Shown here: positions 10,159-26,695 of the stretch, piece by piece | Position numbering within the stretch: position 1 is the stretch's first letter | Layout: each line of letters opens with the position of its first letter | Origin: Candidatus Omnitrophota bacterium | GTDB lineage: Bacteria; Omnitrophota; Gorgyraeia; Aquiviventales; Aquiviventaceae | Direction of reading: 5' to 3' | Assembly (NCBI GenBank): GCA_016206675.1 | Contig: JACQRD010000047.1 | Coordinates: forward strand, 1 to 37,040 | Length of the DNA stretch: 37,040 bases | Notes under the pieces: model-generated | What the model was told of the DNA's origin: nothing | The model's database searches: none | What the model saw: only the letters and a program-made list of their open reading frames with translations | Made by a program: the position numbers and the translations under genes

Positions 10159-11289
10159 ATGTCCGGCCTGTTTTGGCTCTCCTTCAGTGCGCTCATCTAC
10201 ATCTACGCTGGCTATCCGCTGCTGGTATGGGTGCTGGCGCGGGTGTTCGGGCGCGAGCCGGTGCGGCGTGATGGGGCTCCCATCGTCTCGCTGCTGATTC
10301 CTGCGTATAACGAGGAGGCGTACATTGAGGCGCGGCTGCGCAACAGCCTGGCCCTGGACTATCCGAAGGATCGCCTGGAGATCGTCGTCGCCAGCGACGG
10401 CTCCACCGACGGCACCAACGCCATCGTGGAGCACTTTGTACCCCGGGGCGTGCGGCTGATCGCGATGGAGCGCAATCTCGGCAAGGCGGCGATGCTCAAC
10501 CGGGTCGTACCGCAGTTGCGCGGCGAGATCGTCGTGCTCTCCGGCGCCTCTACTGAATTGGAACCGGATGCGCTGCGGCGGCTGGTGCGGTCCTTTGCCG
10601 ATGCATCGGTCGGCTGCGTCTGTGGGTTGTACCGGTTGAAAGGCTCCTCGCAGGATCTGCGCGGAGAAGGGGAAGGGTTGTACTGGCGCTATGAAACCGC
10701 GATCAAGCAGCAAGAGAGCCGGCTGCATTCCATCCTCGGCGCGCACGGGGCGTTCTATGCCATCAGAAAATCGCTGTTTCGCCCACTGGCCGCGGCATCG
10801 ATCAATGACGATTACGTCATCGCCATGCGCGTCGTCGAGCAAGGATTTCGAGCGGTCTATGAGCCCTCAGCGGTGGGATGGGAGCGGGAGGTAGCCTCAG
10901 TGGAAAGCGAGTTTGCGCGCCGCCGGCGCATTGCAGTCGGCAATTGCCAGCAGATCGTCGCGCTGCGGCATCTGCTGAATCCGCTGCGCGGATGGGTCGC
11001 GTTCGCCTTCTTTTCGCACAAGGCGCTGCGCACGTTGGCTCCCGTCTTTCTACTGATGTTGTTGGTCTCGACGTTCTGGCTGCCGGCAGGGTGGCGCGCG
11101 GTCGCGCTCACCGCCCAGGCACTGCTCTATGGCAGCGCGCTCGCCGGCTATTGTTGCCAGCAGCGGGGCAAAACCGTCAAATGGCTCTCGCCTCCGCTGT
11201 ATTTTTGCTTCGGCAACTTGGCCATGCTCGCCGGCCTCTGGACCTTCTGCACCAGCCAACACCGCCTCCCCTGGTCTCACCGCAAATAA
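10159..11289 (+). CDS. Membrane GT2 family glycosyltransferase
   Basis: VSLLIPAYNEEAYIEARLRNSLALDYPKDRLEIVVASDGSTDGT; C-terminal TM helices. Confidence 0.92.
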   Translation: MSGLFWLSFSALIYIYAGYPLLVWVLARVFGREPVRRDGAPIVSLLIPAYNEEAYIEARLRNSLALDYPKDRLEIVVASDGSTDGTNAIVEHFVPRGVRLIAMERNLGKAAMLNRVVPQLRGEIVVLSGASTELEPDALRRLVRSFADASVGCVCGLYRLKGSSQDLRGEGEGLYWRYETAIKQQESRLHSILGAHGAFYAIRKSLFRPLAAASINDDYVIAMRVVEQGFRAVYEPSAVGWEREVASVESEFARRRRIAVGNCQQIVALRHLLNPLRGWVAFAFFSHKALRTLAPVFLLMLLVSTFWLPAGWRAVALTAQALLYGSALAGYCCQQRGKTVKWLSPPLYFCFGNLAMLAGLWTFCTSQHRLPWSHRK

Positions 11290-11290
11290 A

Positions 11291-11311
11291 TCGTGCCTGG
11301 CACGATTTTTT
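11291..11311 (+). repeat. 21-nt palindromic repeat copy A (TCGTGCCTGGCACGATTTTTT)
   Basis: Palindrome AAATCGTGCC-T-GGCACGATTT at 11288-11308, overlapping the GT2 stop codon; 19/21 identical in direct orientation to 12009-12029. Confidence 0.85.
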
Positions 11312-11320
11312 AGATGGGTT

Positions 11321-11620
11321 CTAGGGGTGGGGAGTCACGGCGAGAATCGTGAGTTGGTGTTTCTCTGGGCCGTAACACCAGAAGATCCGGTACGCTGAGG
11401 GGGTGCGGTTTTGCGCATAGGCTTCAAACACCTTCTCCTTCGGATTGAACGGATGCGAGATGGAGGAGTAGGGATGGGTGTGGCGGGAAGGGTGTTTGGG
11501 GTTGTGCTGCAGGTACGCCAGCGATTTCTTGATCTGTCTCACGAGGCCTTCATGACGCGGCGTGCGTTCCAGCGCTTCGAGATCTTTCTGCGCGCTCGCC
11601 GTGAAGATCAGCGCAAACAT
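11321..11620 (-). CDS. RelE/ParE-like toxin of a putative toxin-antitoxin pair
   Basis: 99 aa: MFALIFTASAQKDLEALERTPRHEGLVRQIKKSLAYLQHNPKHPS...YRIFWCYGPEKHQLTILAVTPH resembles a RelE/ParE fold; TAATG overlap with the upstream partner. Confidence 0.65.
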   Translation of the reverse strand: MFALIFTASAQKDLEALERTPRHEGLVRQIKKSLAYLQHNPKHPSRHTHPYSSISHPFNPKEKVFEAYAQNRTPSAYRIFWCYGPEKHQLTILAVTPHP

Positions 11621-11925
11621 TACGCCTCGTCGTTCAGGTACTTCGTATAGTCTTCCTTGGCTTTGACCGTGCGGCCTTTCCTGGCGTCCTCCAGCCCCTC
11701 CTTGACGCGCTTCATCGCTTCGGGATTCTTGAACAGCCAGGCCTCGTAGGCGGGAACGGTGACGAGAGGGTCCAGGATGATCTGGCCCACCCGATTGCGG
11801 TACACTCGGTAACTTGAGACGCGCATCCCCGGCAGGCGCCCCAGCGCCACGCGATGTTTCGCGTCCACCCGCGCTTCGGTCACTGCTTCAAATTCGGCGT
11901 CCTTCAAAATGTCCTGCCGGATCAT
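11620..11925 (-). CDS. Putative antitoxin
   Basis: 101 aa, upstream of and one-base overlapping the RelE-like ORF; WLFKNPEAMKRVKEGLEDARKGRTVKAKEDYTKYL resembles antitoxin C-termini; GGGAGG Shine-Dalgarno on the minus strand. Confidence 0.6.
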   Translation of the reverse strand: MIRQDILKDAEFEAVTEARVDAKHRVALGRLPGMRVSSYRVYRNRVGQIILDPLVTVPAYEAWLFKNPEAMKRVKEGLEDARKGRTVKAKEDYTKYLNDEA

Positions 11926-11960
11926 CGCGCACCTCCCTCGTCACCGACAACGATACCATA

Positions 11961-12002
11961 AAGTGGGATTTAATACAAGTGGGATATACTAACTATCCCA
12001 CT
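11961..12002. promoter_or_regulatory. Candidate operator region of the TA pair
   Basis: AAGTGGGAT twice in direct orientation (11961-11969, 11977-11985) plus a perfect 9-bp inverted repeat AGTGGGATA-N7-TATCCCACT (11978-11986/11994-12002), just upstream of the minus-strand antitoxin start. Confidence 0.55.
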
Positions 12003-12008
12003 CTAAAA

Positions 12009-12029
12009 TCGTGCCAGGCACCATTTTTT
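12009..12029 (+). repeat. 21-nt palindromic repeat copy B (TCGTGCCAGGCACCATTTTTT)
   Basis: GTGCC-A-GGCAC core; 19/21 match to 11291-11311. Confidence 0.85.
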
Positions 12030-12226
12030 GGCGTTGCCTGCGCACGACAATTCGTGCTTGATTCCCCCTCCAGCAGCAACATCCTCTCGCTTTCCGAGGA
12101 ATAAGGTACTTAGTAACTACTTGTAAAATAAGCAGTTACAAAAATATTGATACCTGAACACTTCGGCATGGCATGTGCTTACTTATGTCTATATCTGCGT
12201 AACAATGAGGAGGTTTGCATAACGTC

Positions 12227-12436
12227 ATGACCACCGGAACGGCCAGCCAGCTGCTGACATTAGAGGAAGTCGCCGGTTACCTCAGAGTCTCCAAGGCGAC
12301 GGTCAGACGTTGGACCAACAGCGGAAAGCTGCCCTGCTACCGCCTCGGCGGCAAGGCCGGCCGCCGGCTGTTTTCGCTGGAGCAGATCCAGCAGTTTCTG
12401 ACCGCCAACGAACAGAAGCCGGTAGTGACCACCTAA
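12227..12436 (+). CDS. Excisionase/MerR-like helix-turn-helix DNA-binding protein
   Basis: LLTLEEVAGYLRVSKATVRRWTNSGKLPCYRLGGKAGRRLFSLEQIQQFL is a HTH_17-type winged helix; AGGAGG Shine-Dalgarno upstream. Confidence 0.9.
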   Translation: MTTGTASQLLTLEEVAGYLRVSKATVRRWTNSGKLPCYRLGGKAGRRLFSLEQIQQFLTANEQKPVVTT

Positions 12437-13566
12437 TGCCTAAGCCCCTGCGCGTGCTCATGCTCAACTATGATTGCCCGCCGCTCGGGGCGGGCGCCGG
12501 GCAGATGGCCTTCGGGCTGTCGAAGGCGCTGGTGCGCGCAGGCCATCAGGTGGACTTCGTGACCATGGGCTTCAAGGGCCTGCCGGCAAGGGAAGAGATC
12601 GAGGGCGTGCGCATTCACCGCGTGCCGTGCCTGCGCCGCCGCGCGCACATGTGCACGATGGCGGAGGCCGCCACGTACGTCGTCTCGGCGCTGGTCGCCG
12701 TGCGACGGCTGGTGCGGCAGCATCGCTACGACCTGATCCACGCGCACTTCATCTTTCCGGGTGGGCCCATCGGGTGGTGTGCCTCGCGATGGACCAAGGT
12801 GCCCTATCTGATCACCGCGCATGGCTCCGACGTGCCCGGCTACAACCCGTACCGGCTGCAGCTGGTCCACTGGATGATGGCGCCGCTGTGGCGGGCTATC
12901 GTGCGCCGCGCGAGGCACGTGGTCTGTCCCAGCCGCCGGCTGCGCAGCCTGCTGGCGGCGTGCGGAGCCAGCGCGCCGGTGACGATCATCCCCAACGGGA
13001 TGGACGCGCCGCCGGCGACCGCGCCGCAGCCCCGGCTGCGCCGCATCCTCATCGTGGGTCGCATGGTGCAGCTCAAAGGCGTGCAGCATGCCCTGGCCGC
13101 CCTCAACGGCTTCTCTAAAGACTACGAACTGCATATTGTCGGCGATGGGCCGTACCTGCCGACGCTGCGGCAGATGGCCGAGGCGCAGGGGGCGCGCGTG
13201 ACGTTTTGGGGATGGGTGGACAGCCACTCGCCGAAATTCCGCGAGCTGTTCGAAACATCAAGCCTCTTCATACTGCCCTCGGAGTCGGAGAATTTTCCAG
13301 TCGTGCTGCTCGAAGCGATGGCCGCCGGCCTGCCCATCATCACGACCTCCGGCACCGGCTGCGATGAGGTGGTCGGCGACGCCGCCCTCCTCGTGCCCCC
13401 CGGCGATGTGCAAGCGCTGCGCTACGCGGTGAAACGCCTCATCGAAGATGAGCCGTTGCGCCGCACGTTGGGCCAGGCGGCCCGCCGGCGCCTGGAAGAA
13501 CAGTTCAGCTGGAGCGCCGTCGCCGCGCGGTACGCCGCGCTCTACCAGCGCGCGGAGGGGGCATGA
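12436..13566 (+). CDS. GT4 family glycosyltransferase
   Basis: MPKPLRVLMLNYDCPPLGAGAGQMAFGLSKAL...SESENFPVVLLEAMAAGLPIITTSGTGCDEVV; ATG overlaps the HTH stop (TAATG). Confidence 0.93.
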   Translation: MPKPLRVLMLNYDCPPLGAGAGQMAFGLSKALVRAGHQVDFVTMGFKGLPAREEIEGVRIHRVPCLRRRAHMCTMAEAATYVVSALVAVRRLVRQHRYDLIHAHFIFPGGPIGWCASRWTKVPYLITAHGSDVPGYNPYRLQLVHWMMAPLWRAIVRRARHVVCPSRRLRSLLAACGASAPVTIIPNGMDAPPATAPQPRLRRILIVGRMVQLKGVQHALAALNGFSKDYELHIVGDGPYLPTLRQMAEAQGARVTFWGWVDSHSPKFRELFETSSLFILPSESENFPVVLLEAMAAGLPIITTSGTGCDEVVGDAALLVPPGDVQALRYAVKRLIEDEPLRRTLGQAARRRLEEQFSWSAVAARYAALYQRAEGA

Positions 13567-14564
13567 GTCGCCGTCCCCGGCAGGGTCCGGATTTCCTCTG
13601 CATCGGCGCGCCGCGCTGTGGCACGACGTGGCTCTACCAGATGCTGAAGACGCATCCGCAGATCTGGCTGCCCCCGGTGAAGGAGTTGAAATATTTTCAC
13701 AGCGATCCGGCCGCGGGCACGCTGCTGGGGCAGCGGCTCTTCGGCCGCGCGCCAGAGCATCAGGTCTGGCGCAAGCATCTGCGATCACGTCTCGAGGAGA
13801 CCGTGCTGGCCCCGGCGCTCTTCGGCAGCGGGGGGATGGTCACGTGGTGGAGGAAGGGGGCCATGCGGCTGGGCGACGGCTACTGGGGCGGACGACTAAA
13901 CACCCTGCGCCGCAGCCCGGGGCGTTTCTTCTCGGATCTGGCGTGGGATGTCCGGTATTTTGGCGGCGGGGGGACCGATGCGTGGTACTGCGCATTGTTC
14001 GACGCCGCCCGGGAGCGGGTCACCGGCGACATCACGCCGAGCTACCTGATGCTGGACGCAGCCCAGGTGGCCCGCGCGCACCGGCTGCTGCCGCAGGCCA
14101 AAATCGTCTTGTTCCTGCGTGATCCCATCGAGCGCTTCTGGGCGGCGGCGCGCATGCAGTGGGGGTTAGGGAAGCTCTCGTTTGACTTGACGGACGCGGA
14201 GGCGATCGCCCGGCTGGCGCGTCATCCCAACCAGGTGCTGCGCGCCGATTACCAGCGGGCACTCACGATCTGGGAGGCGCGCTATCCCCCCGCGCAATGG
14301 TTCATCGCCTTCTATGAAGAGCTGGCAGAAGCACCCGAGGCGCTGCTGATGCGCCTCTATCGCTTCCTTGGCGTGGAGGCCTCGGCCCGGCGCATCCCGG
14401 CGCAGGTACGACAGCGGGTGCTGGCGGCTCCCCCCCATGAGATGCCGCCGGCGGTGGGGCGCGAGCTGGCTCGACAGTACCTGCCGCAGCTGGAGTATGT
14501 GCAGGCCCGCTTCGGCGGCTATACGACGCGCTGGCTGCATGACGCGCAGGCACGGCTCGCATGA
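13563..14564 (+). CDS. Sulfotransferase domain protein
   Basis: DFLCIGAPRCGTTWLYQMLKTHPQIWLPPVKELKYF (5' PAPS-binding loop), KIVLFLRDPIERFWAA (3' PAPS motif); ATGA overlap. Confidence 0.92.
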   Translation: MSRRPRQGPDFLCIGAPRCGTTWLYQMLKTHPQIWLPPVKELKYFHSDPAAGTLLGQRLFGRAPEHQVWRKHLRSRLEETVLAPALFGSGGMVTWWRKGAMRLGDGYWGGRLNTLRRSPGRFFSDLAWDVRYFGGGGTDAWYCALFDAARERVTGDITPSYLMLDAAQVARAHRLLPQAKIVLFLRDPIERFWAAARMQWGLGKLSFDLTDAEAIARLARHPNQVLRADYQRALTIWEARYPPAQWFIAFYEELAEAPEALLMRLYRFLGVEASARRIPAQVRQRVLAAPPHEMPPAVGRELARQYLPQLEYVQARFGGYTTRWLHDAQARLA

Positions 14565-15541
14565 CGCGGGCAAGTTGGCTGGGCGGCTGGTGGCTCAGAG
14601 CCGGCGTCGCCGGCGGCCTGCTGTATCTCATTATCCGCACCATTCCGCTGGCCGACGTGGCGCGGTCGCTGCGATCGGCCCGGCTGCCCGAGGTGGCGGC
14701 GGCCATCGCCCTGTTGGGTGCGGCGCGCGCGCTGAGCGGCTACCGCATGAAGCGGCTCACCGATGAGCAGGGCATGGGCTTATCCACGCTGCAGATCATG
14801 GAGATCGGCATGGCCAGTTCGTTCTACGGGTTCGTGCTGCCGGGATCGTTGTCGGGGGGGCTCATCCGCTGGTACCGGCTCGGCCGGCAGGGCAAGAAGC
14901 CGGCCGGTGCCGTGGCCGCCATCGCGTTTGATCGGTGGACGGATACGATGGTACTCGCAGCCGTCGGGCTGGCCTGCTGGGCGCTCAGCCCGATCGCGCA
15001 CACGCGCGCCCTGATCGGGCTCATCCTGCTGGCGGCCATCGCCGCCCTCCTCGGGCTCTATGGCATGACCTTTCAGCAGCACGGCGCGCGGGTGCTTGAG
15101 CCCTTCAGGCGGCTCCTGCGGTCGCTAGCCCCCGGCCTTATGCGGGAAAAGATCAACCGGGTGCGCAAGGCGCTGGCCCAGTATCACGCGTTGCCGCCCA
15201 CGGCGCTGGGTGCGCTGTTGGGGCTTTCCGTCGCCGTGCAACTGGCGGGCGCGGCGTCTCTGTTGCTGCTGGCGCGTTCGCTGAACGTCTCACTGCCGTT
15301 TGTGGACGTCTGCTGGATCCGCTCGTGCATGCTGCTGCTGGCCATGCTCCCCATCACGGTGGCCGGCTTAGGCATCCGGGAAGGCAGCTTGCTGGTCTTC
15401 CTGGCCCCCTACGGGGTCAGCGGCGCGGAGGCGATCGCCCTGTCCGTGCTCAAGCTGGCGGCGGGGCTGGTCCTGATCGTCGTCGGGGGATTGCTCGAGC
15501 TGCGGCGCCTGCTGCAGCCGCAGAGGGCGCAGGCCTCATGA
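14561..15541 (+). CDS. Lysylphosphatidylglycerol synthase TM-domain / flippase-like membrane protein
   Basis: 326 aa polytopic; MEIGMASSFYGFVLPGSLSGGLIRWYRLGRQGK and LPITVAGLGIREGSLLVFLAPYGVSGAEAIALSVL are hallmarks of the family. Confidence 0.88.
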   Translation: MTRASWLGGWWLRAGVAGGLLYLIIRTIPLADVARSLRSARLPEVAAAIALLGAARALSGYRMKRLTDEQGMGLSTLQIMEIGMASSFYGFVLPGSLSGGLIRWYRLGRQGKKPAGAVAAIAFDRWTDTMVLAAVGLACWALSPIAHTRALIGLILLAAIAALLGLYGMTFQQHGARVLEPFRRLLRSLAPGLMREKINRVRKALAQYHALPPTALGALLGLSVAVQLAGAASLLLLARSLNVSLPFVDVCWIRSCMLLLAMLPITVAGLGIREGSLLVFLAPYGVSGAEAIALSVLKLAAGLVLIVVGGLLELRRLLQPQRAQAS

Positions 15542-17547
15542 GCGACGGGCACGTGGTCTCGGTCATCATTCCCACCATCGACCGGCCGACCCTGCAGCAG
15601 TCTCAAGAGGCTCTGCGGGCCCAAACCCGGCCGGCGGATGAAGTCATCGTGATCCACGATACCGGGCGGCGAGGGGTGAGTTGGGCGCGCAACGAAGGCA
15701 TCCGCCGCTCGCGCGGGGATCTGATCGTGTTCGCCGATGATGACTGCGTGCCCCCGAGGGATTGGCTGGAGCAGCTCGTGCGCGCAGTTGATCGCGACGC
15801 GGCTGGCATCGTCGTGGGCGGCTGCCGGGAGACGGACCCGCTGCTCGATGCCAAACGGCGCCGGCGCGGCGCGGCGAATCGTGTCCAACCGTCGTCGGCG
15901 TACGGGGGCAACGTCCTCTATCGGCGCAGCTGCCTGGAGGCCTGCGCTGCGCAGGACGGGAGCATCTTTCAGGAAGCCTTCGGCATCGGGGGCATCGGGG
16001 GAGAAGATGTGGAGCTGGCCGGACGCCTGCGGGCCCGCGGGGTGCCGATTGTGTTCGTCCCGGTGGACGTGACGCATCTGAAGCGCGTCACCCCGCGCGG
16101 CTACTGGGCGCAGCAGTTTGGCCGCGGGCAGGGGATCGCCGCGCTCTTCAGGGCCGCGCGATCCGGACGCGTGGCCCTCGCCCAGCAGAGCCTGCTCTGG
16201 GATCATGAGGCGCAGCCGAAGGCTCGGCGCGGCCCCAGGTGGTTGCTTGCCGTGTGGCGCAAGCTCGTGGGGCCGTTTGACGTGAAGAGTTTTCCATCCC
16301 TGCGCCACTTTCTGGTGTTCTGGGCCGGCGAAAAGTGCGAGGCCGCCGGTTTCGCCTGGGGCCTGCTGTGCCGCCGGCACGGTCGTCCGCAGGCCGCGCC
16401 GCGCGTCTGTCTCTGGGGAACCTCGCTCCACAAAGTGGCCGATGAGGCCCAGATGATAGCGGCGTGTGACGCCATTCGCCTGCGGATGCCTCAGGCGCGC
16501 ATCACCTTATTTGCCCGGCCCAACGGCGTCTTTGAGCGCGAGGCCGCCGGAATCGAGGTCATCCCCACGGCGCGAATCATCCAGGTCCTGCGCCGCCTGG
16601 CGCGCAGCGATCTCTTTGTCATCGTTGGCGGGCCCTTTCTTGAGAACCGCGCGCAGGTGTTCAGCTGCGCGCTGCTCATCGGCGCCGCCAGGCTGTGGCG
16701 CCGTCCGGTTGTCACCTTCGGCAGCACGATTCTCGATTACAAGACGCGCTGGGGCCGGTGGTGGTACCGGCGGCTCTTCGAGCGCATTGACGCCATCGCC
16801 GTGCGGGAGGAGGTCGGGCTGCGGCAGCTTCACGCGCTGGGGGTTCGAAGCGCGGCCGCGCTGGTCGGGGATCCGCGCATCCTGCTTACGCCGGCGCCTG
16901 CCGAGGAGATCCGCGGCCTCTTGCGGCGCGAAGGGTTCGACGGCACGCGTCCGCTCATCGGGCTGACCACCCGTCATCTCAGCGACGACGTGCCGGTATG
17001 GGTCAAGCGCACCGCCGGCTACACGCCGGAGCATGTCGCGCAGGCCAACGTCATCCTTGGACGCACCATCAGCGCGCTCAGTCAGCGGGCGGACGTCGTC
17101 CTGCTGCCGATGCACCCGACGTATGATGAGGATCTGAAGACGGCCGAAGCCATCAGGGACACGATGGCTGATCCGTCGCAGTTGAACATTCTGAGCCGGG
17201 CGTACCGGGCGCGCGAGCTCATCGGGTTGATCGCCGCGTGCGAGCTGCTCATCGCGGGACGGCTCGGCTCCGCGATCTTCGCTACGGCGGCGGGAACTCC
17301 GGTGCTCGGCGTCGCCTACGAAAGCCGGCTGCCGGGCTACTTGGAGCAGATCGGCTGCGGCCGGTACGTGCGCGACTGGCGGGCGCTCGACGACACGTTT
17401 GTGCGGTTGGCGGAGGAGCTGTGGAGTGATCGCGCTACGGTCCAGCGGCAGATGCAGGGGCATCTGGCACACCTGAAATCGCAGGCGGCGGCCAACGGGG
17501 AGCTGATCGCTCGGTGGGCTCGCCGGGATCAGGTCAAAGCGGCATGA
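15538..17547 (+). CDS. Fusion: N-terminal GT2 glycosyltransferase + C-terminal polysaccharide pyruvyl transferase-like domain
   Basis: VSVIIPTIDRPTLQQSQEALRAQTRPADEVIVIHD...DDDCVPPRDWLEQL then RVCLWGTSLHKVADEAQM...PLIGLTTRHLSDD...AACELLIAGRLGSAIFATAAGTPVLGVAYE; real start 15538 (ATGA overlap). Confidence 0.85.
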   Translation: MSDGHVVSVIIPTIDRPTLQQSQEALRAQTRPADEVIVIHDTGRRGVSWARNEGIRRSRGDLIVFADDDCVPPRDWLEQLVRAVDRDAAGIVVGGCRETDPLLDAKRRRRGAANRVQPSSAYGGNVLYRRSCLEACAAQDGSIFQEAFGIGGIGGEDVELAGRLRARGVPIVFVPVDVTHLKRVTPRGYWAQQFGRGQGIAALFRAARSGRVALAQQSLLWDHEAQPKARRGPRWLLAVWRKLVGPFDVKSFPSLRHFLVFWAGEKCEAAGFAWGLLCRRHGRPQAAPRVCLWGTSLHKVADEAQMIAACDAIRLRMPQARITLFARPNGVFEREAAGIEVIPTARIIQVLRRLARSDLFVIVGGPFLENRAQVFSCALLIGAARLWRRPVVTFGSTILDYKTRWGRWWYRRLFERIDAIAVREEVGLRQLHALGVRSAAALVGDPRILLTPAPAEEIRGLLRREGFDGTRPLIGLTTRHLSDDVPVWVKRTAGYTPEHVAQANVILGRTISALSQRADVVLLPMHPTYDEDLKTAEAIRDTMADPSQLNILSRAYRARELIGLIAACELLIAGRLGSAIFATAAGTPVLGVAYESRLPGYLEQIGCGRYVRDWRALDDTFVRLAEELWSDRATVQRQMQGHLAHLKSQAAANGELIARWARRDQVKAA

Positions 17548-19562
17548 AGATCTGTCTGATTGCAGTGGAGATCTTTGCATGGGGCAAGCATGGCGGCTTC
17601 GGCAAGGCCACGCGCCTGATCGGCCGTGAGCTCATCCGCCGGGGCCACCAGGTCTTCGCGGTCGTCCCTCAACGGAAGGGGCAGCGTCCCGTGGAGCAGC
17701 TCGACGGAATCACCGTGCTGGGTTTTTCGCCATCTCGACCCTGGATGGCGGCGGCGCTGTTGCGCTCGTGCGATGCCCAGATCTACCACTCCTGCGAGCC
17801 GTCGCTGGCCACGGCGCTGGCCCTGCGCGTCATGCCCCACAAGCGCCACATGGTGACCTTCCGCGATCCGCGCGACCTGCGGGATTGGTGGTTGGAATTC
17901 GAGCGCCCTTCGCTCCATTACGGGCAGGTGCTGCACAACTTTCTCTATGAGGACAACTGGTGGGTCCAGCGCGCGGTGCGGCGCATGGATGCGGTTTACA
18001 CGACCGCGCACGAGCTGATCCCCAAGGTGCGTCGCATGTATCGGCTGGCAACCGACCCGGCCTTTCTGCCGACGCCGGTGGCGGTCCCGGCCCGTGTCAC
18101 CAAAGCCCAGACCCCGACGGTCTGCTACCTCGCGCGTTTGGATCGGCGCAAGCAGCCGGAGCTCTTCTTCGAGATGGCGCGCCAGTTTCCCGCCGTGCGC
18201 TTCATCGCGATGGGCAAGTCGAGAGACCCGCGCTGGGAGGCCGAGCTGCGCCGGCGCTACACCGGGCTGCCCAATGTGACGTTTGCCGGGTTCCAGGACC
18301 CGTTCGTCGACGGCCGGCACGCGAGCCTGCTTGAGCAGAGCTGGGTGATGGTCAACACGGCCACGCGCGAAGCGCTGCCCAACGCGTTTCTCGAAGCGGC
18401 CGCGCACGGCTGCGCCGTCCTGAGCGAGATCAATACGGATGGGTTTGCTGCACGCTTCGGCTTCCACGTCCGTGACGGGGACTTCGCCTCCGGGCTGCAG
18501 TGGCTGCTGGAGGATGGGCGATGGCGCACGCAGGGCGAGGCCGGACGCCGCTTCGTCACAGAGCACTTCGAGCTGGACCGGGCGATGGAGGCGCATGTGA
18601 CCGCCTACAAGCGTCTCCTGGCCTCGGTAGCCGCGGTTGCGCCGTCCGCGCGTCCTCCACGCGCAGCCGTCGTCGTGCTGAACCGCGACAAGAAGGCCGA
18701 GGCGCTGGCCTGCGTCGAGAGCGTGCAGCGGCTGACACGGCAACCCTTGGAGGTCGTCGTCGTCGACAACGCCTCGATGGACGGTTCACCCGACGCGATC
18801 ACCCGGGCCTTCCCGCAGGTGCGCTTGATCCGCAACCCCGCCAATCTCGGCGCCTCCGGGGGCCGCAATGTGGGGTGGCGCGCGGCCGCGGCGCGCACGC
18901 GTCCGGAGTTCATCCTGTTTCTCGATGATGACGCGGCGCCTGAGCCGCCGTCGCTCGGCCGGCTTATCGACGCGTTACAGGCCGATCCACAGGCCGGCAT
19001 CGCGTGCGGCAAAGCGTACACGCGCTCCCCATCGCGCACCATCATGTCGGCGGGCATCATCGTCAACCGGTGGACCGGCGCGGTGCATGACCGCGGCGCA
19101 GGCCGCCTCGACGACGGCCGCTACGACCGTGGAGGCTACGTGGATGCCTGCGGCGGTTTTGCCTGGCTGGCGCGTCGTGAAGTGTTGGAGGCGCTCAACG
19201 GATTGGACGAGCGCTTTAACCCGTACGGATGGGAAGACGTCGACTTCTGCCTGCGGGCGGCAGCACGCGGTTGGCGCGTGCGCTACGTGCCTGAGGCGAT
19301 CGTGTATCACGGCGGCGGCAAGGTCGGCCGCAAGCCGGTGGCCGCCTACGAGCGGCGCAAAGTCTGCAATTATTTGCTGCTGCTGCGGCGGCATACGAAT
19401 CTTCTGCAGCGATTCAGTTGCGCGCTCTGCGTGCCTTGGCGCGCGCTGCTCGTGATGGGCCGGCTGATCCGGCAGGGCCATGCGGCCATCATCGCGGAGC
19501 ACTGGCGCGGCCTGTGGGACGGCCTGCGCCTCTTACCTGACAACCACGGAGGTCCATCATGA
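17544..19562 (+). CDS. Fusion: N-terminal GT4 + C-terminal GT2 glycosyltransferase
   Basis: MKICLIAVEIFAWGKHGGFGKATRLIGRELIRRGHQV...NAFLEAAAHGCAVLSE (GT4) followed by AAVVVLNRDKKAEALACVESVQRLTRQPLEVVVVDNASMDGS...FLDDDAAPEP...GWEDVDFCLRAAARGW (GT2). Confidence 0.9.
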   Translation: MKICLIAVEIFAWGKHGGFGKATRLIGRELIRRGHQVFAVVPQRKGQRPVEQLDGITVLGFSPSRPWMAAALLRSCDAQIYHSCEPSLATALALRVMPHKRHMVTFRDPRDLRDWWLEFERPSLHYGQVLHNFLYEDNWWVQRAVRRMDAVYTTAHELIPKVRRMYRLATDPAFLPTPVAVPARVTKAQTPTVCYLARLDRRKQPELFFEMARQFPAVRFIAMGKSRDPRWEAELRRRYTGLPNVTFAGFQDPFVDGRHASLLEQSWVMVNTATREALPNAFLEAAAHGCAVLSEINTDGFAARFGFHVRDGDFASGLQWLLEDGRWRTQGEAGRRFVTEHFELDRAMEAHVTAYKRLLASVAAVAPSARPPRAAVVVLNRDKKAEALACVESVQRLTRQPLEVVVVDNASMDGSPDAITRAFPQVRLIRNPANLGASGGRNVGWRAAAARTRPEFILFLDDDAAPEPPSLGRLIDALQADPQAGIACGKAYTRSPSRTIMSAGIIVNRWTGAVHDRGAGRLDDGRYDRGGYVDACGGFAWLARREVLEALNGLDERFNPYGWEDVDFCLRAAARGWRVRYVPEAIVYHGGGKVGRKPVAAYERRKVCNYLLLLRRHTNLLQRFSCALCVPWRALLVMGRLIRQGHAAIIAEHWRGLWDGLRLLPDNHGGPS

Positions 19563-21151
19563 CGTATTCGCGACGAGGAAGCGGCCAGGTCATCGCGATC
19601 GGGCTTGAAGCCACCGATCCGGGTTTGGTTGAACGCTGGTGCCGCGAGGGCCATCTGCCGACGTTCACCTCGCTGATGCAGCGCGGCGCCTGGCGGCGGC
19701 TGCGCTCGAATACCGAAATCTCCAGCGGCTCGACGTGGGCCTCGGTCAACACCGGCGCCGGTGCTGGCAAGCACGGCATGGCCTTCTATCACCGGCAGTT
19801 GAAGTCCGGCACCTACCGGCTGCGCAAGAAGTATGCGGAAGAGATCGCGCGCGAGCCGTTTTGGCTGCCCTTAAGCCGCGCGGGCAAGCGGGTGGCCGTC
19901 TTGGACGTGCCGGAATCGTACGCCACCCCGGGCTTCAACGGCATGCAGCTCATCGGCTGGGGCGCAGAGGGCTTAAACGCGCCGCGTTCCTCTTGGCCCT
20001 CGCCGCTGTATCGGCGCATCACCGCGCGCTACGGCTGCCATCCTCTCGCCGGATGGTTCCAGCACCGGCCGGCCTCGCTCGACGAGTGGGCAGTGCTCTC
20101 AAAGAACATGCTCGATGGCACCACGACGCGGGCGGCCATCTTCCGCGAGCTGTACGCGCAAGAGCGGTGGGATCTGTTCCTGGCGGCATTCGCCGAGCCG
20201 CACTGGTCCGGCCACTACTTCTGGCACATCATGGACGAGCGCCACCCCGACTACGATCCGCAGGTGGCCGCCGTCTGTGGCGACACGATCCGTCGGGTGT
20301 ACCAAGTCATCGACCGATCCATCGCCGAGTTGTTGGAGGCCGCGCCGCAGGCCACGGTGCTGATCTTTTCCAACACCGGCATGGGGCCCAACTACAGCGG
20401 CCAGCATCTGCTGCCGGAACTTCTCAGCCGCCTGGGTTTGGCTGGCCGCATGGGGCAGTCGATGGCGCCGAAGGGGCTGTCGAAATTGCTGCCTGGACGG
20501 TACGTAGGCTCCTCCGCCATCCGCCGGATCGCCGACGCGGTCTCGCCTCAGAACATCGAGCGGATCAAGCAGCTGATGCCGGAGCGTCTCTGGGATGCGT
20601 GGACCCGCTGGGCGCTCGCGTTGGGCAGCACGTGGAAGGACAGCCGGGCGTTTGCGCTCCCCACCGATTTTACCGGCGCCATCCGCATTAACCTGCAGGG
20701 GCGCGAACCGGAGGGCAAAGTGGCCCCCGGCGCGGAGTACGATGCCACCTGCGAGGAGCTCGCGCATGCGCTGAAGGAGCTGATCAATCCCGCCACGGGC
20801 AAGCCGGCGGTGGCCGAGGTGATCAAGATCGCCGACTGGCATCCCGGCGAGCAAGTCGACGAGCTGCCTGATCTGATCGTCAAATGGACCGCGGATGCGC
20901 CCATCAATGCGCTCACCTCGCCGCGCATCGGCACCGTCAGCGGCGTGCTGCCGGATCTGCGCTCCGGAGCGCACACGACGTACGGCTTTCTGCTGGGGGT
21001 CGGGGAGGGCATCGCTGCGCGCGGCACGCTGCCCAACGCGCACATCATGGACGTGGCCCCCACCATCATGCGGCTGATGGGTCAGCCGGCCCCCGACGAT
21101 GTGGAGGGGCGGCCGCTGGAGGATCTGCTGGGTGCGGCGGTGAACGCATGA
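19559..21151 (+). CDS. Alkaline phosphatase superfamily / type I phosphodiesterase-nucleotide pyrophosphatase-like protein
   Basis: VIAIGLEATDPGLVERWCREGHLPTFTSLMQRGAW...SSGSTWASVNTGAGAGKHGM; IFSNTGMGPN; DVAPTIMRLMGQPAPDDVEGRPLEDLL. Confidence 0.85.
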   Translation: MTYSRRGSGQVIAIGLEATDPGLVERWCREGHLPTFTSLMQRGAWRRLRSNTEISSGSTWASVNTGAGAGKHGMAFYHRQLKSGTYRLRKKYAEEIAREPFWLPLSRAGKRVAVLDVPESYATPGFNGMQLIGWGAEGLNAPRSSWPSPLYRRITARYGCHPLAGWFQHRPASLDEWAVLSKNMLDGTTTRAAIFRELYAQERWDLFLAAFAEPHWSGHYFWHIMDERHPDYDPQVAAVCGDTIRRVYQVIDRSIAELLEAAPQATVLIFSNTGMGPNYSGQHLLPELLSRLGLAGRMGQSMAPKGLSKLLPGRYVGSSAIRRIADAVSPQNIERIKQLMPERLWDAWTRWALALGSTWKDSRAFALPTDFTGAIRINLQGREPEGKVAPGAEYDATCEELAHALKELINPATGKPAVAEVIKIADWHPGEQVDELPDLIVKWTADAPINALTSPRIGTVSGVLPDLRSGAHTTYGFLLGVGEGIAARGTLPNAHIMDVAPTIMRLMGQPAPDDVEGRPLEDLLGAAVNA

Positions 21152-22137
21152 CGATCCCAACGCGCCCGCTGGGAGCCACGGGGCCGCGCGTCTCGGCGCT
21201 GGGCCTTGGCTGCTCGTCGCTGGGCGGCGGGGTCTTCTCCCGCGACGACGCCGAATCGCTTCGCCTCTTGCATCACGCGTTGGAGCGCGGGGTGACCTTC
21301 TATGACACCGCGGATATGTACGGCTATGGCCACAGTGAGCGGCTCATCGGGCGGGCGTTCAAAGGCCGCCGGCGCGAAGTGATCATCGCCAGCAAGGCCG
21401 GCTTCTTGCCGTCGTCGCTGGCGCGCTGGGGGCAAGTCGCCCTGCCGGTTGCCGGGCTGGTGCGTCCGCTGCTGCAACCGCTGCGGAAACCGCTGCATCA
21501 GGCCTCGAAAACACGGCAGGATTTTTCCCGGGGCCACATCACGCGCGCCATCGACGGGACGTTGCAGCGGCTGCAGACGGACTACGTCGATGTCTATCTG
21601 CTGCACAGCCCGCCGACAGCGGTGCTGCAGCAGGGCGAGGTGTTCGAGCTCTTGCGAGCGATGAAGCGGCAGGGCAAGATCCGCCATGGCGGTGTGTCGG
21701 CGCACACGATCGATGACGCGCTGCTCGCATTGCGCGATCCGGATGTCGAGGTCCTCGAAGTGGCGTTCAATCTGTTGGATCAAGAGGCCGCGGTGCGCCT
21801 GTTTCCCGTCGTCGCCCAGCGGCCGGTGGGCATCATCGCCCGCGTCCCGTTGGCCCGCGGCCTGCTGATCGAGCGCGCGACGATGCAGCCCGGCAGGACG
21901 CGGTCGATCGCTCACGCAGCACTGCAGTTTGTGCTCCAGTATCCCGAAGTCTCCACGGTGATTCCCGGCACCAAGTCGGTGGCGCATCTGGAGGATAATC
22001 TCCGAGCGCTGGAAGTCGAACCTTTGACCCTCGAAGAAATACAACAAGTCACAGACCAATCGTGGCTCAGGGCTCGGGGCTCGGGGCAAACGACCCAGAG
22101 CCCCCAGCCCACAACCCAGAGCCACGCGGGTTCTTGA
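21148..22137 (+). CDS. Aldo/keto reductase
   Basis: MTIPTRPLGATGPRVSALGLGCSSLGGG...GVTFYDTADMYGYGHSERLIGRAFKGRRREVIIASKAG...DYVDVYLLHSP...VSTVIPGTKSVAHLEDN. Confidence 0.94.
   Translation: MTIPTRPLGATGPRVSALGLGCSSLGGGVFSRDDAESLRLLHHALERGVTFYDTADMYGYGHSERLIGRAFKGRRREVIIASKAGFLPSSLARWGQVALPVAGLVRPLLQPLRKPLHQASKTRQDFSRGHITRAIDGTLQRLQTDYVDVYLLHSPPTAVLQQGEVFELLRAMKRQGKIRHGGVSAHTIDDALLALRDPDVEVLEVAFNLLDQEAAVRLFPVVAQRPVGIIARVPLARGLLIERATMQPGRTRSIAHAALQFVLQYPEVSTVIPGTKSVAHLEDNLRALEVEPLTLEEIQQVTDQSWLRARGSGQTTQSPQPTTQSHAGS
22061..22126. repeat. GC-rich heptad/palindromic repeat forming the aldo/keto reductase C-terminal codons
   Basis: CGTGGCTCAGGGCTCGGGGCTCGGGG (22061-22086) inverted against CCCAGAGCCCCCAGCCCACAACCCAGAGCCACG (22094-22126); outer arms CGTGGCTC/GAGCCACG perfect. 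Confidence 0.7.
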
Positions 22138-22138
22138 G

Positions 22139-22588
22139 ATGCTCGCAAAACTGGCGCAGCTGATTGCCACGGGTGGCGGAGTCGGATACGCTCCAGTGGC
22201 CTCCGGGACCGTGGCAAGCGCCGTTGTCGCAGCCCTCTGGTGGGTGCTGCCGTTGTCTGTGCCGGTCCAATGGGTGGTTTGTGCCGCGATGACACTGGGC
22301 GGCGTCTGGGCTTCCGGCGTGGTGGCCAGGCGCCTGGGTGATCAAGATCCTTCCGTTGTGGTGATTGATGAGTTCGCGGGCATGTGGCTGGCTGTCGCCG
22401 GCCTGCCGAAGGCCTGGCCGGTGATCGGCGCAGCCTTCCTGTTGTTCAGAATCTTGGATATCGGTAAGTTTCCTCCTATGAAGCAGTTAGAGCATCTTCC
22501 CGGCGGATGGGGCATCATGCTCGACGACGTGGCCGCCGGAGCGATCACCCGTCTCTGCCTCCTGGGGCTGGTCGCCTACATGTTCTGA
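22139..22588 (+). CDS. pgpA: Phosphatidylglycerophosphatase A
   Basis: LIATGGGVGYAPVASGTVAS...DPSVVVIDEFAGMWLA...RILDIGKFPPMKQLEHLPGGWGIMLDDVAAG. Confidence 0.94.
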   Translation: MLAKLAQLIATGGGVGYAPVASGTVASAVVAALWWVLPLSVPVQWVVCAAMTLGGVWASGVVARRLGDQDPSVVVIDEFAGMWLAVAGLPKAWPVIGAAFLLFRILDIGKFPPMKQLEHLPGGWGIMLDDVAAGAITRLCLLGLVAYMF

Positions 22589-22893
22589 CATAGTCCACGT
22601 CGGCTAAATACAACATAAAGACGCTTATTGTTGCTTAATTCTTCATATTGACCTGCTGTTGCATTCGACAGACGCTCTGTCGTGTCGAACAGACTCAAAA
22701 GGATTCGCTGGTCCACACACCATCTGATCAGTCCTCGAGGGCGCCTCGTAAAGCATAACTATAGTATTTCCAATAGGTTAGACAGAATAAAATTCACCAT
22801 TTTGTTAGGAGATTGGCATGATCCCTGCTTTCATAAGGATATGCTCTCTTACAAAGTTCAACCAACCATAAGGCATAAGGCAGGTCATAAGGA

Positions 22894-23595
22894 ATGAGTG
22901 CGTTAGTCGCGAGGCTGTTGTCGTTTCATCAGGAATTGGCGGTTGAGCTTCAACGATTTTTACTGCTTGTTCGATACCAGCACCATGTGCCGCCGTTTAC
23001 GCTGTGGTGGCGGCTGGTGCTCAAGCGGATTGTGGATGTGCTCGGCGCGCTCATCGGCCTGATCATCACGGCGCCGGTGATGGCCGTCGTCGCCGCGCTG
23101 ATCAAACTCGATTCCAGGGGGCCGATCTTCTACAAGCAGCAGCGCGTGGGCCGGTTCGGAGAGCTATTTAACATTTGCAAGCTCCGTTCCATGAAGATGG
23201 ACGCCGAAGTCGCCGGGCCGCAATGGGCCGCCGGAGCAGAGGACCCCCGATTGACCCGCGTTGGCCGCCTGCTGCGGCGCCTGCATCTCGATGAGCTGCC
23301 GCAGCTCTGGAACGTGTTGGTCGGCCACATGAGCCTGGTCGGTCCGCGGCCTGAACGGCCATGCTTTTTTGACGATCTGAATCACTCCATCGACCGCTAC
23401 GATGAGCGCCTGCTGATCAAGCCCGGCATGACGGGCTTGGCCCAGGTGCACTACCGCTACGATGCGTCGCTTGCGGATGTGCGCAGAAAATTGCGGTTCG
23501 ATCTGCTCTACATTAAGCGAATGTGCGTGGCACTTGATGCGCGGATTCTTGCGTGGACCGTCCTGGTCGTGCTGACCGGGCGCGGCATCCGCTAA
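22894..23595 (+). CDS. Initiating sugar transferase (bacterial sugar transferase family)
   Basis: LKRIVDVLGALIGLIITAPVMAVVAALIKLDSRGPIFYKQQRVGRFGELFNICKLRSMKMDAE...LDELPQLWNVLVGHMSLVGPRPERP...KPGMTGLAQV. Confidence 0.95.
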   Translation: MSALVARLLSFHQELAVELQRFLLLVRYQHHVPPFTLWWRLVLKRIVDVLGALIGLIITAPVMAVVAALIKLDSRGPIFYKQQRVGRFGELFNICKLRSMKMDAEVAGPQWAAGAEDPRLTRVGRLLRRLHLDELPQLWNVLVGHMSLVGPRPERPCFFDDLNHSIDRYDERLLIKPGMTGLAQVHYRYDASLADVRRKLRFDLLYIKRMCVALDARILAWTVLVVLTGRGIR

Positions 23596-24979: not shown

Positions 24980-25854
24980 TTCCACTACACGGCTGCAGCG
25001 CCGAGTACCGGGCCGAGCGGCTCTTGTGGCACGCGCAACAGCGCGCGCAGGCGGTGATGGACGATCCCGCCGGCGCGGCAGAGGAACAGGCGGTTGCGGC
25101 CATGGCGGCATTGGAACAGGTCATCAGCAAGGCCCGTGGCAGCCGCGCGGCGGCGCAGGCGCAGCTCGCTCTCGGGTCGATCGCCGCGCGCCGCAACCAG
25201 TTGGCGCAGGCGCGCGAAGCGTACGAAACGGCCGTCCGCAATCACAGCCAGTTCCCCGACCTGGCATATGCGGCGCGCGCGGCGCTACTGACGATCTATG
25301 CAGCCCAGCACGATCAGGCCGCGTTGATCGCCATGTACCGTGAGCTGATGGTTTCGCAGCCATGGAGCGGCGCGGGGCTGGATGCGCCGCTGGCCATCGC
25401 CCGTGCCGTCGCGCAGCGCCACTCCGCTGAGGAAGCCTCCGCGGCGTATCAGGCCGCGGTCAAGCACTACGAGAAGTTGATCAACGAGGCGCCCTCGATG
25501 GCCCAGGTGCTGCTCGCGAAGGGGCAGATGGTTGCGGCCTACGAAGGGCTGGGACAGTGGGAGCGCGCCATGGCGCTCTTGAAGGAGCTGGCAGCGGCGG
25601 AGCGTGGCGTGAACCGCCCTGTGGTCTTGCTGAAGATGGCGCAACTGCACGAAACACGGTTCGGTGAGATGGAGCAGGCGAAAGCCCTCTACCGGCAAGT
25701 GATCGACGGTTATGCGGGGCAGCCGGCCGCGTGGGCGGCGGCGCAGGCGCTGGCACGCCTTGTCCCGCCGCCGGCATCCCACACGGCGGCGTTGCCGGAG
25801 CTGTTGCTGTTCGCGCCGCCGCAGCGTCGAGGGACAAGCGCGCATGTCGAGTAG
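24934..25854 (+). CDS. TPR-repeat putative lipoprotein
   Basis: MADPSKTPTLLIAFLIPLHGCSAE lipobox-like start; TPR-like QAQLALGSIAARRNQLAQAREAYETAVRNHSQFPDLAYAAR, QVLLAKGQMVAAYEGLGQWERAMALLKEL. Confidence 0.75.
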   Translation: MADPSKTPTLLIAFLIPLHGCSAEYRAERLLWHAQQRAQAVMDDPAGAAEEQAVAAMAALEQVISKARGSRAAAQAQLALGSIAARRNQLAQAREAYETAVRNHSQFPDLAYAARAALLTIYAAQHDQAALIAMYRELMVSQPWSGAGLDAPLAIARAVAQRHSAEEASAAYQAAVKHYEKLINEAPSMAQVLLAKGQMVAAYEGLGQWERAMALLKELAAAERGVNRPVVLLKMAQLHETRFGEMEQAKALYRQVIDGYAGQPAAWAAAQALARLVPPPASHTAALPELLLFAPPQRRGTSAHVE

Positions 25855-26695
25855 CGCCGTGCGCGGAGGGCCGCACCGTCTGGCATGGACGCTGCCATGG
25901 ATCGCCGCCGGCGTGGCCTTGTGCTGGCCCACCATGCGCTGGATGGCGGAGCGGTTTGAGGCCCCCGACTCCTTTTATTCGCACGGCTGGCTGATCCTTG
26001 TGGCCAGCGGATGGCTGCTCTGGAAGCGGCGCGCGCGGCTGGCCGCGCTGCCGGCCTCGCCGACGTATGACGGCCTGTGGGTGTTGGTGCCGTCGCTCGC
26101 CGTCTACGTGATGGCGACATGGTGGCGCATTCACGTCGTCGCGGGCTTGAGCCTGTTGGGGATCCTCTGGGGGCTGGTCTGGACGCTCTGGGGTCGCGCG
26201 GTCGCCAAGGTAGCGCGGTTTCCGTTGGCCTTTCTCGTGTTTATGGTCCCGCTGCCTGGCATTCTCTTAATTGCCATCAGCTTTCAAATGAAGCTGCTGG
26301 CCGCCGCCATCGCCACGTGGCTGCTGAACCTCATCGGCATGCCGGCGACGCAGGCCGGCTCAACGATTCAGGTGCCCGGCGTGTCCGTCATTGTGGACGA
26401 CACCTGCAGTGGGCTGCGGTCGCTCATCAGTTTGCTGGCTCTGTCGATTTTCTGGACGGCGCTACTGCCGCCGGTCGCCGCGCGGTGGCAGAAGCTCAGC
26501 CTGGTCGCGGCGTCAGTGCCGATTGCCCTGCTGGGGAACATGGTCCGGATCCTCGTGCTGGTGTTGGTGGCCGTGATTTACGGAGCGAAGGCCGCCGAAG
26601 GATTCATTCACTATGGTTCCGGCATGGTGGTCTTCGGCGTCGCCATCGTCGTGCTGGTGTGGCTGAGCAACCTCTTGATGAAGCGCTCCCGATGA
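25844..26695 (+). CDS. Exosortase (EpsH/exosortase family)
   Basis: Multi-TM; conserved Cys in VIVDDTCSGLRSLISLLALS, Arg in NMVRILVLVLVA, His in GFIHYGSGMVVF. Confidence 0.92.
   Translation: MSSSAVRGGPHRLAWTLPWIAAGVALCWPTMRWMAERFEAPDSFYSHGWLILVASGWLLWKRRARLAALPASPTYDGLWVLVPSLAVYVMATWWRIHVVAGLSLLGILWGLVWTLWGRAVAKVARFPLAFLVFMVPLPGILLIAISFQMKLLAAAIATWLLNLIGMPATQAGSTIQVPGVSVIVDDTCSGLRSLISLLALSIFWTALLPPVAARWQKLSLVAASVPIALLGNMVRILVLVLVAVIYGAKAAEGFIHYGSGMVVFGVAIVVLVWLSNLLMKRSR

Follow-up and report, generated by a model that had tools for sequence, protein, structure and literature searches.

The described systems closest to the repeats reported here are the REP/REPIN-RAYT (TnpA-REP) REPtrons and their TIRtron/TIRYT variants, and those closest to the genes lying between the repeats are the toxin-antitoxin (TA) systems RelBE, YefM-YoeB and ParDE. 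Atypical palindromes and terminal inverted repeats are known beside other Y1 subclasses (PMC6006769; PMC3733652). Other REP families favor the gaps between convergent genes and 3′ ends, and REPs at the ends of ORFs have been described (PMC3733652).

The locus analyzed here lies in a window of 37,040 nt (the whole stretch of DNA under study; contig JACQRD010000047.1 of the “Candidatus Omnitrophota” assembly GCA_016206675.1). The original prediction described a TA-like island that was bounded by direct 21-nt repeats and was consistent with insertion as a small mobile or repeat-bounded cassette. According to our analysis, it is very probable that the two 21-mers are solo copies of a dispersed REP-like palindrome, of the kind that accompanies Y1/RAYT proteins, and that they flank an independent, self-regulated type II TA operon. 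Several points behind this reading were observed directly: the palindromes exist, they are dispersed in the genome and across phyla, they form inverted pairs, they are enriched next to RAYT genes in relatives, and the TA family is independent of them. The features of the locus are as follows.

2229–2265, no strand: second REP-like pair, GTGTCAGACAC-N15-GTGTCTGACAC, an inverted dimer
10159–11289, plus strand: GT2 glycosyltransferase, last gene of the family-conserved block GT4-GH123-deacetylase-GT2 and left edge of the lineage-specific stretch
11288–11308, no strand: REP-like palindrome copy 1, AAATCGTGCCTGGCACGATTT, with a perfect 9-bp stem, a CTG loop and then TTT
11321–11620, minus strand: toxin of 99 aa, a divergent RelE/YoeB/ParE-fold protein (by ORF, profile and predicted structure)
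11620–11925, minus strand: antitoxin of 101 aa, the first gene of the operon (by ORF, with weak SpoVT/MraZ matches)
11962–12002, minus strand: putative TA operator, with AGTGGGAT at 11962–11969 and 11978–11985 and inverted ATCCCACT at 11995–12002
12006–12026, no strand: REP-like palindrome copy 2, AAATCGTGCCAGGCACCATTT, its stem containing one C-C mismatch
12215–12436, plus strand: small DNA-binding protein of HTH_17/excisionase type, which opens the next operon and lies outside the TA unit
22894–23595, plus strand: bacterial sugar transferase, located close after GT2 in most relatives examined and forming the right edge of the lineage-specific stretch

The 21-mers at 11291–11311 and 12009–12029 are identical at 19 of 21 bases, so the coordinates and the degree of match given in the original prediction were confirmed. 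They bracket a minus-strand two-gene unit, with the ORFs 11321–11620 and 11620–11925 inside, and the placement of the island right after the GT2 stop (11289) and before the HTH-led operon (start at 12215) was also correct. In first-order shuffles about 0.15 direct 19/21 repeats within 1 kb were expected per window, and two were observed; at this expectation the pair of 21-mers is unlikely, yet the figure is not decisive alone. Each 21-mer is a near-palindrome, AAATSGTGCCWGGCACSATTT, and copy 1 matches copy 2 at 21 of 22 positions in inverted sense (as the reverse complement) and at 20 of 22 in direct sense. Since each copy is nearly palindromic and its inverted match is at least as good as the direct one, the label “direct” carries no information.

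The core of the palindrome, GTGYCWGRCAC, was searched for in the host assembly (1.10 Mb in 97 contigs, 78% complete), where it occurred 13 times, in comparison to no occurrence of the reversed control. About eight of these 13 copies look like true elements, namely the two at the TA operon and the pairs at 2229/2255, on contig C32 and on contig C22. The remaining five sites are single and may represent coding sequence or chance, some of them lying in likely coding DNA. Across 27 genomes of the family the core was found 388 times, versus 39 for the control. The full 21-mer pattern was present in 55 stretches of reference genomes from many phyla (Desulfovibrio, Gammaproteobacteria, Elusimicrobia, Omnitrophota, Actinobacteria, Acidobacteria, Clostridia and others), and the genomes sampled from these matches carried 1–77 copies each when one mismatch was allowed. 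The median palindrome length was 21; between genomes the arms vary and the core is constant. A chance resemblance of two short AT-flanked palindromes, which would draw on the roughly 0.15 such pairs expected per window, is a practically negligible explanation in view of the core count in the assembly (13, with 0 for the control) and of a 21-mer common to many phyla. The viral contigs contained no exact copy of the 21-mer, and no Rfam family and no tRNA were detected in the window. A literature search with the exact core sequence returned no paper that treats it as a repeat, the matches by title looking like primers or other unrelated sequences.

Close inverted pairs of the core occur in the window (2229/2255), in C32 (281/304) and in C22 (13328/13346), and many more are found in relatives. 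The pair at 2229/2255 is contained in the final 19 codons of the GT4 ORF at 11–2284 and supplies a C-terminal tail that has no counterpart in the GT4 proteins of relatives. The similarity to these proteins ends at about residue 737–740, where the pair begins, and the corresponding loci of relatives are without the core. Such a pattern would be expected from the insertion of a REP-like element at a 3′ end. In other phyla (L093, L108, L110, L091, L105 and similar loci), the core in its GTGCCWGGCAC form was seen at the tip of longer palindromes, which are genome-specific and about 40–50 nt in length, for example AATAACTTAATAAATGGTGCCTGGCACCATTTATTAAGTTATT in a Desulfovibrio MAG.

The association with RAYT genes was found in relatives. 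When the 30 Y1_Tnp loci with the best scores were checked first, the GTGCC core was present in one only; the link emerged after the GTGTC variant had been added and the RAYTs of the family had been searched. Among the family RAYT loci, 10 of 30 contained the core, with a total of 31 sites in 95 kb and none for the reversed control, and 20 were without the motif; the non-RAYT loci of the relatives (29 of GT2 type and 14 of TA type) had 0 cores in 144 kb. After removal of the overlap between L210 and L235, the excess was 25 to 0, with p of about 6e-11 by length, a value that serves only as a guide because sites within one locus are not independent. In the host assembly, at its 78% completeness, no RAYT was detected by Pfam or by protein search. 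A GT[AG]G foot was present at 4 of 204 palindrome ends, which is below the random expectation of about 11, so the palindromes resemble classical GTAG REPs and are not such REPs. Palindromy, dispersal, inverted pairs and Y1/RAYT flanking together lead us to classify them as dispersed REP-like hairpins that lack the classical GTAG foot.

The existence of REP-RAYT-REP arrangements with the same palindromes (in one case, an actinobacterial RAYT lies between two copies) brings up the question of whether the window holds a composite REP-like element, in which inverted palindromes and TA genes moved together and the TA pair took the place of the RAYT of a REPtron. Both window copies can be read in inverted sense and enclose only the TA genes, as such an element would require. 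We regard this as improbable: no second REP-TA-REP arrangement was found among 43 TA loci, and the two copies differ from each other, so that they could have arrived separately.

The two window copies also differ in folding. GT2 and the toxin gene are convergent, with a gap of 31 nt between their stops, and copy 1 lies in this gap; as RNA it folds with -10.0 kcal/mol (z of -3.5) on one strand and with -10.5 kcal/mol (z of -4.3) on the other. Copy 2, which folds weakly (z of -1.2 and -1.5 on the two strands), is situated between the divergent antitoxin and HTH genes, upstream of the antitoxin operator and about 190 nt ahead of the HTH ORF. The 9-bp stem and T-run of copy 1, its convergent gap and its good fold on both strands might suggest that the two sites are merely similar-looking ordinary intrinsic terminators. 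It is quite unlikely that this is all they are, given that the 11-nt core is far more frequent than the reversed control in different genomes and phyla and is concentrated next to RAYT genes, that copy 2 folds weakly and lies upstream of both neighboring genes, and that one pair of cores is located inside a coding end. Copy 1 was not among the sites listed by a simple terminator scan. As a solo REP-like palindrome, copy 1 would probably act as a bidirectional terminator or mRNA 3′ end, because it folds equally on both strands and occupies a gap between convergent stops, and REPs favor such gaps (PMC3733652). Copy 2, the weaker of the two hairpins, is located immediately outside the TA operator and may simply be a resident copy. 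We infer that single-strand (HuH-type) RAYT activity placed the copies, and this activity is assigned to an ancestor because the 78%-complete host assembly contained no RAYT.

In the tree of the family RAYTs, all seven proteins located beside GTGCCWGGCAC (L230, L231, L234, L235, L236, L238 and L239) fell into one clade with a support of 1.00. None of the other 20 leaves was labeled with GTGCCWGGCAC, and the two labeled with GTGTCWGACAC fall elsewhere and have intact motifs; L210 and L235 are neighbors in the same genome, and each was labeled according to the palindromes closest to it. All seven members of the clade have a broken HuH motif (PDQVH, PSEVR, PDSIE and similar sequences) and have lost Y--NP. 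The proteins, about 416–452 aa from a conserved MPRP/MARL start, contain a hydrophobic stretch; their C-terminal domain (WETMQT..WRGEW..MRGV.TRQ) is also conserved and ends in SEI/SET or similar residues. Pfam recognized the Y1 domain only. These motif changes suggest that the seven are possibly domesticated, catalytically dead RAYTs. As a tentative proposal, to which we give a real chance and rather less than an even one, GTGCCWGGCAC may constitute a cross-phylum REP-like class without the GTAG foot that is tied, in this family, to a domesticated and possibly membrane-anchored hairpin-binding RAYT derivative, not to a transposase; the window copies would then represent scattered binding sites or relics.

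The TA pair is genuine as judged from its sequence and predicted structure. The antitoxin ORF (11925–11620) and the toxin ORF (11620–11321) overlap by one base, and the antitoxin-toxin order is kept in relatives. The AlphaFold model of the toxin has a pLDDT of 87.5 and the RelE element order E-H-H-E-E-E-E; Foldseek assigned it to YoeB/RelE with a probability of 1.00, the best matches being YoeB/ParE 6n90 (TM 0.71) and archaeal RelE 1wmi. The match to Pfam ParE_toxin reached 15.4 bits (E 0.029), under the cut-off of 23, and the best relative reached E 7e-4. No PDB chain matched the toxin by sequence, and PADLOC, PHROGs and NCBIfam gave no usable TA assignment (there was no NCBIfam match). The toxin profile detected relatives in four viral contigs and, within the phylum, in 63 of 384 genomes. 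The antitoxin showed a weak SpoVT match (E 0.24) and, in one member, a weak MraZ match (E 0.13); its N-terminus is probably a swapped-hairpin (AbrB/SpoVT-like) domain followed by a toxin-binding tail. Its structural model was too poor for use (pLDDT 38.8). TCCCAC half-sites occur at 22 per kb upstream of the antitoxins versus 0.35 per kb elsewhere in the loci (about 60-fold), and such sites are present in 26 of 28 loci, the window counted. The RelE/YoeB fold, the conserved two-gene order and the conserved operator thus agree with the TA assignment made in the original prediction.

The operon would be transcribed leftwards from about 11960 towards copy 1, antitoxin first and toxin second. The antitoxin probably binds the AGTGGGAT half-sites and neutralizes a toxin of the RelE/YoeB RNase type, which is predicted from its fold to act as an RNase at the ribosome. 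Among the viral relatives of the toxin, L206, L208 and L209 have different antitoxins with a similar tail, a pattern of partner swapping; the antitoxin of L206 is short and AbrB-like, and those of L208 and L209 are, by eye, ribbon-helix-helix-like.

Concerning the relation between the repeats and the TA genes, the original prediction had named TA genes conserved without the repeats as the pattern contrary to a repeat-bounded cassette. This pattern was looked for and found at 43 of 43 other loci: the palindrome was present at 0 of 14 and 0 of 29 (90 kb) TA loci, i.e., at 0 of 43, a few of these loci being partial or repeat matches. Conversely, the palindromes occur without any TA genes elsewhere in the host assembly and in other genomes. 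Homologues without the palindrome (29 further loci) and an operator of its own indicate that the TA unit is self-contained and independent of the repeats. A small mobile cassette, with the TA genes inserted as a unit between direct repeats serving as target-site duplication or recombination sites, would fit the 19/21 direct match on either side of the only minus-strand unit of the stretch, the lack of TA genes at the GT2 junction of six relatives, and the GC content of the island (57%), which is below that of the window (65.5%). We consider it very unlikely, since the repeats are palindromic and match better in inverted sense, recur without TA genes, and are missing at all 43 other TA loci examined, and since the lineage-specific stretch extends to 11.6 kb with a right edge that has no matching repeat. 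That the repeats flank an ordinary TA pair is incidental; they are not the ends of a mobile cassette, for which no support was found.

The extent of this stretch was established at the GT2 junction. GT2 is retained in six relatives and is mostly preceded there by the deacetylase, GH123 and GT4 genes; after it, neither the TA genes nor the repeat is present, as compared at the gene level in relatives none of which belongs to the same genus. The sugar transferase starts 228–293 bp after GT2 in L242–L245 and about 1.3 kb after it in L240; no sugar transferase was found in the stretch examined after GT2 in L241. Exosortase-type genes follow in several of the six. In the window, the sugar transferase (72% identity) is encoded at 22894–23595 and an exosortase at 25712–26695. 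In most relatives GT2 is followed by a gene that here lies at 22894, so the lineage-specific stretch comprises about 11.6 kb, not 0.7 kb. This DNA (11290–22893), absent from the relatives examined, begins with the TA genes and continues with the HTH gene, GT4 and other glycosyltransferases, a sulfotransferase, an LPG-synthase TM protein, a pyruvyl transferase, a phosphodiesterase, an aldo/keto reductase and, last, a PgpA-like gene. It is a lineage-specific glycan block within an exosortase locus. No repeat joins its left and right edges. Taken as a whole, the original prediction was supported in part: the locus is specific to the lineage, with no TA genes behind GT2 in six relatives, and a 0.7-kb repeat-bounded unit is not supported. 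An imperfect palindrome, GTAACTACTTGTAAAATAAGCAGTTAC, at 12115–12141, upstream of the small HTH gene at 12215, is a candidate operator.

Overall, the analysis removes a false lead, in that repeats bracketing a TA operon need not be the ends of a cassette, and palindromic repeats make the distinction between direct and inverted meaningless. It adds a REP-like hairpin family that spans several phyla and whose sequence was not described in the literature searched. It also adds a TA family (AbrB-like antitoxin, divergent RelE toxin and TCCCAC operator) that is common in the phylum and was missed by the family models searched. The apparently inactive RAYT-like clade beside the same hairpins is the most interesting lead of the analysis and bears on the open question of why hosts keep RAYTs.

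In comparison to RelBE, YefM-YoeB and ParDE, the TA pair has the same antitoxin-first two-gene operon, the same RelE fold and similar upstream operator half-sites, whereas the toxin sequence stays below the Pfam ParE_toxin cut-off without an NCBIfam match, and the antitoxin is not recognizably similar to RelB, YefM or ParD and is probably AbrB-like. The window palindrome differs from classical REPs in having no GT[AG]G foot. It is also a low-copy element of the host genome (13 cores, about eight of them convincing), whereas REPs usually exceed 100 copies, and it differs from REPtrons in that RAYTs flanked by the palindromes are found in relatives and none was found in the 78%-complete host assembly. 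With REP/REPIN-RAYT REPtrons and the TIRtron/TIRYT variants it shares the form of dispersed, mostly extragenic palindromes of 20–40 nt, the close inverted pairs, the location in convergent gaps and at gene ends, and Y1 transposases as neighbors (PMC3733652; PMC6006769).
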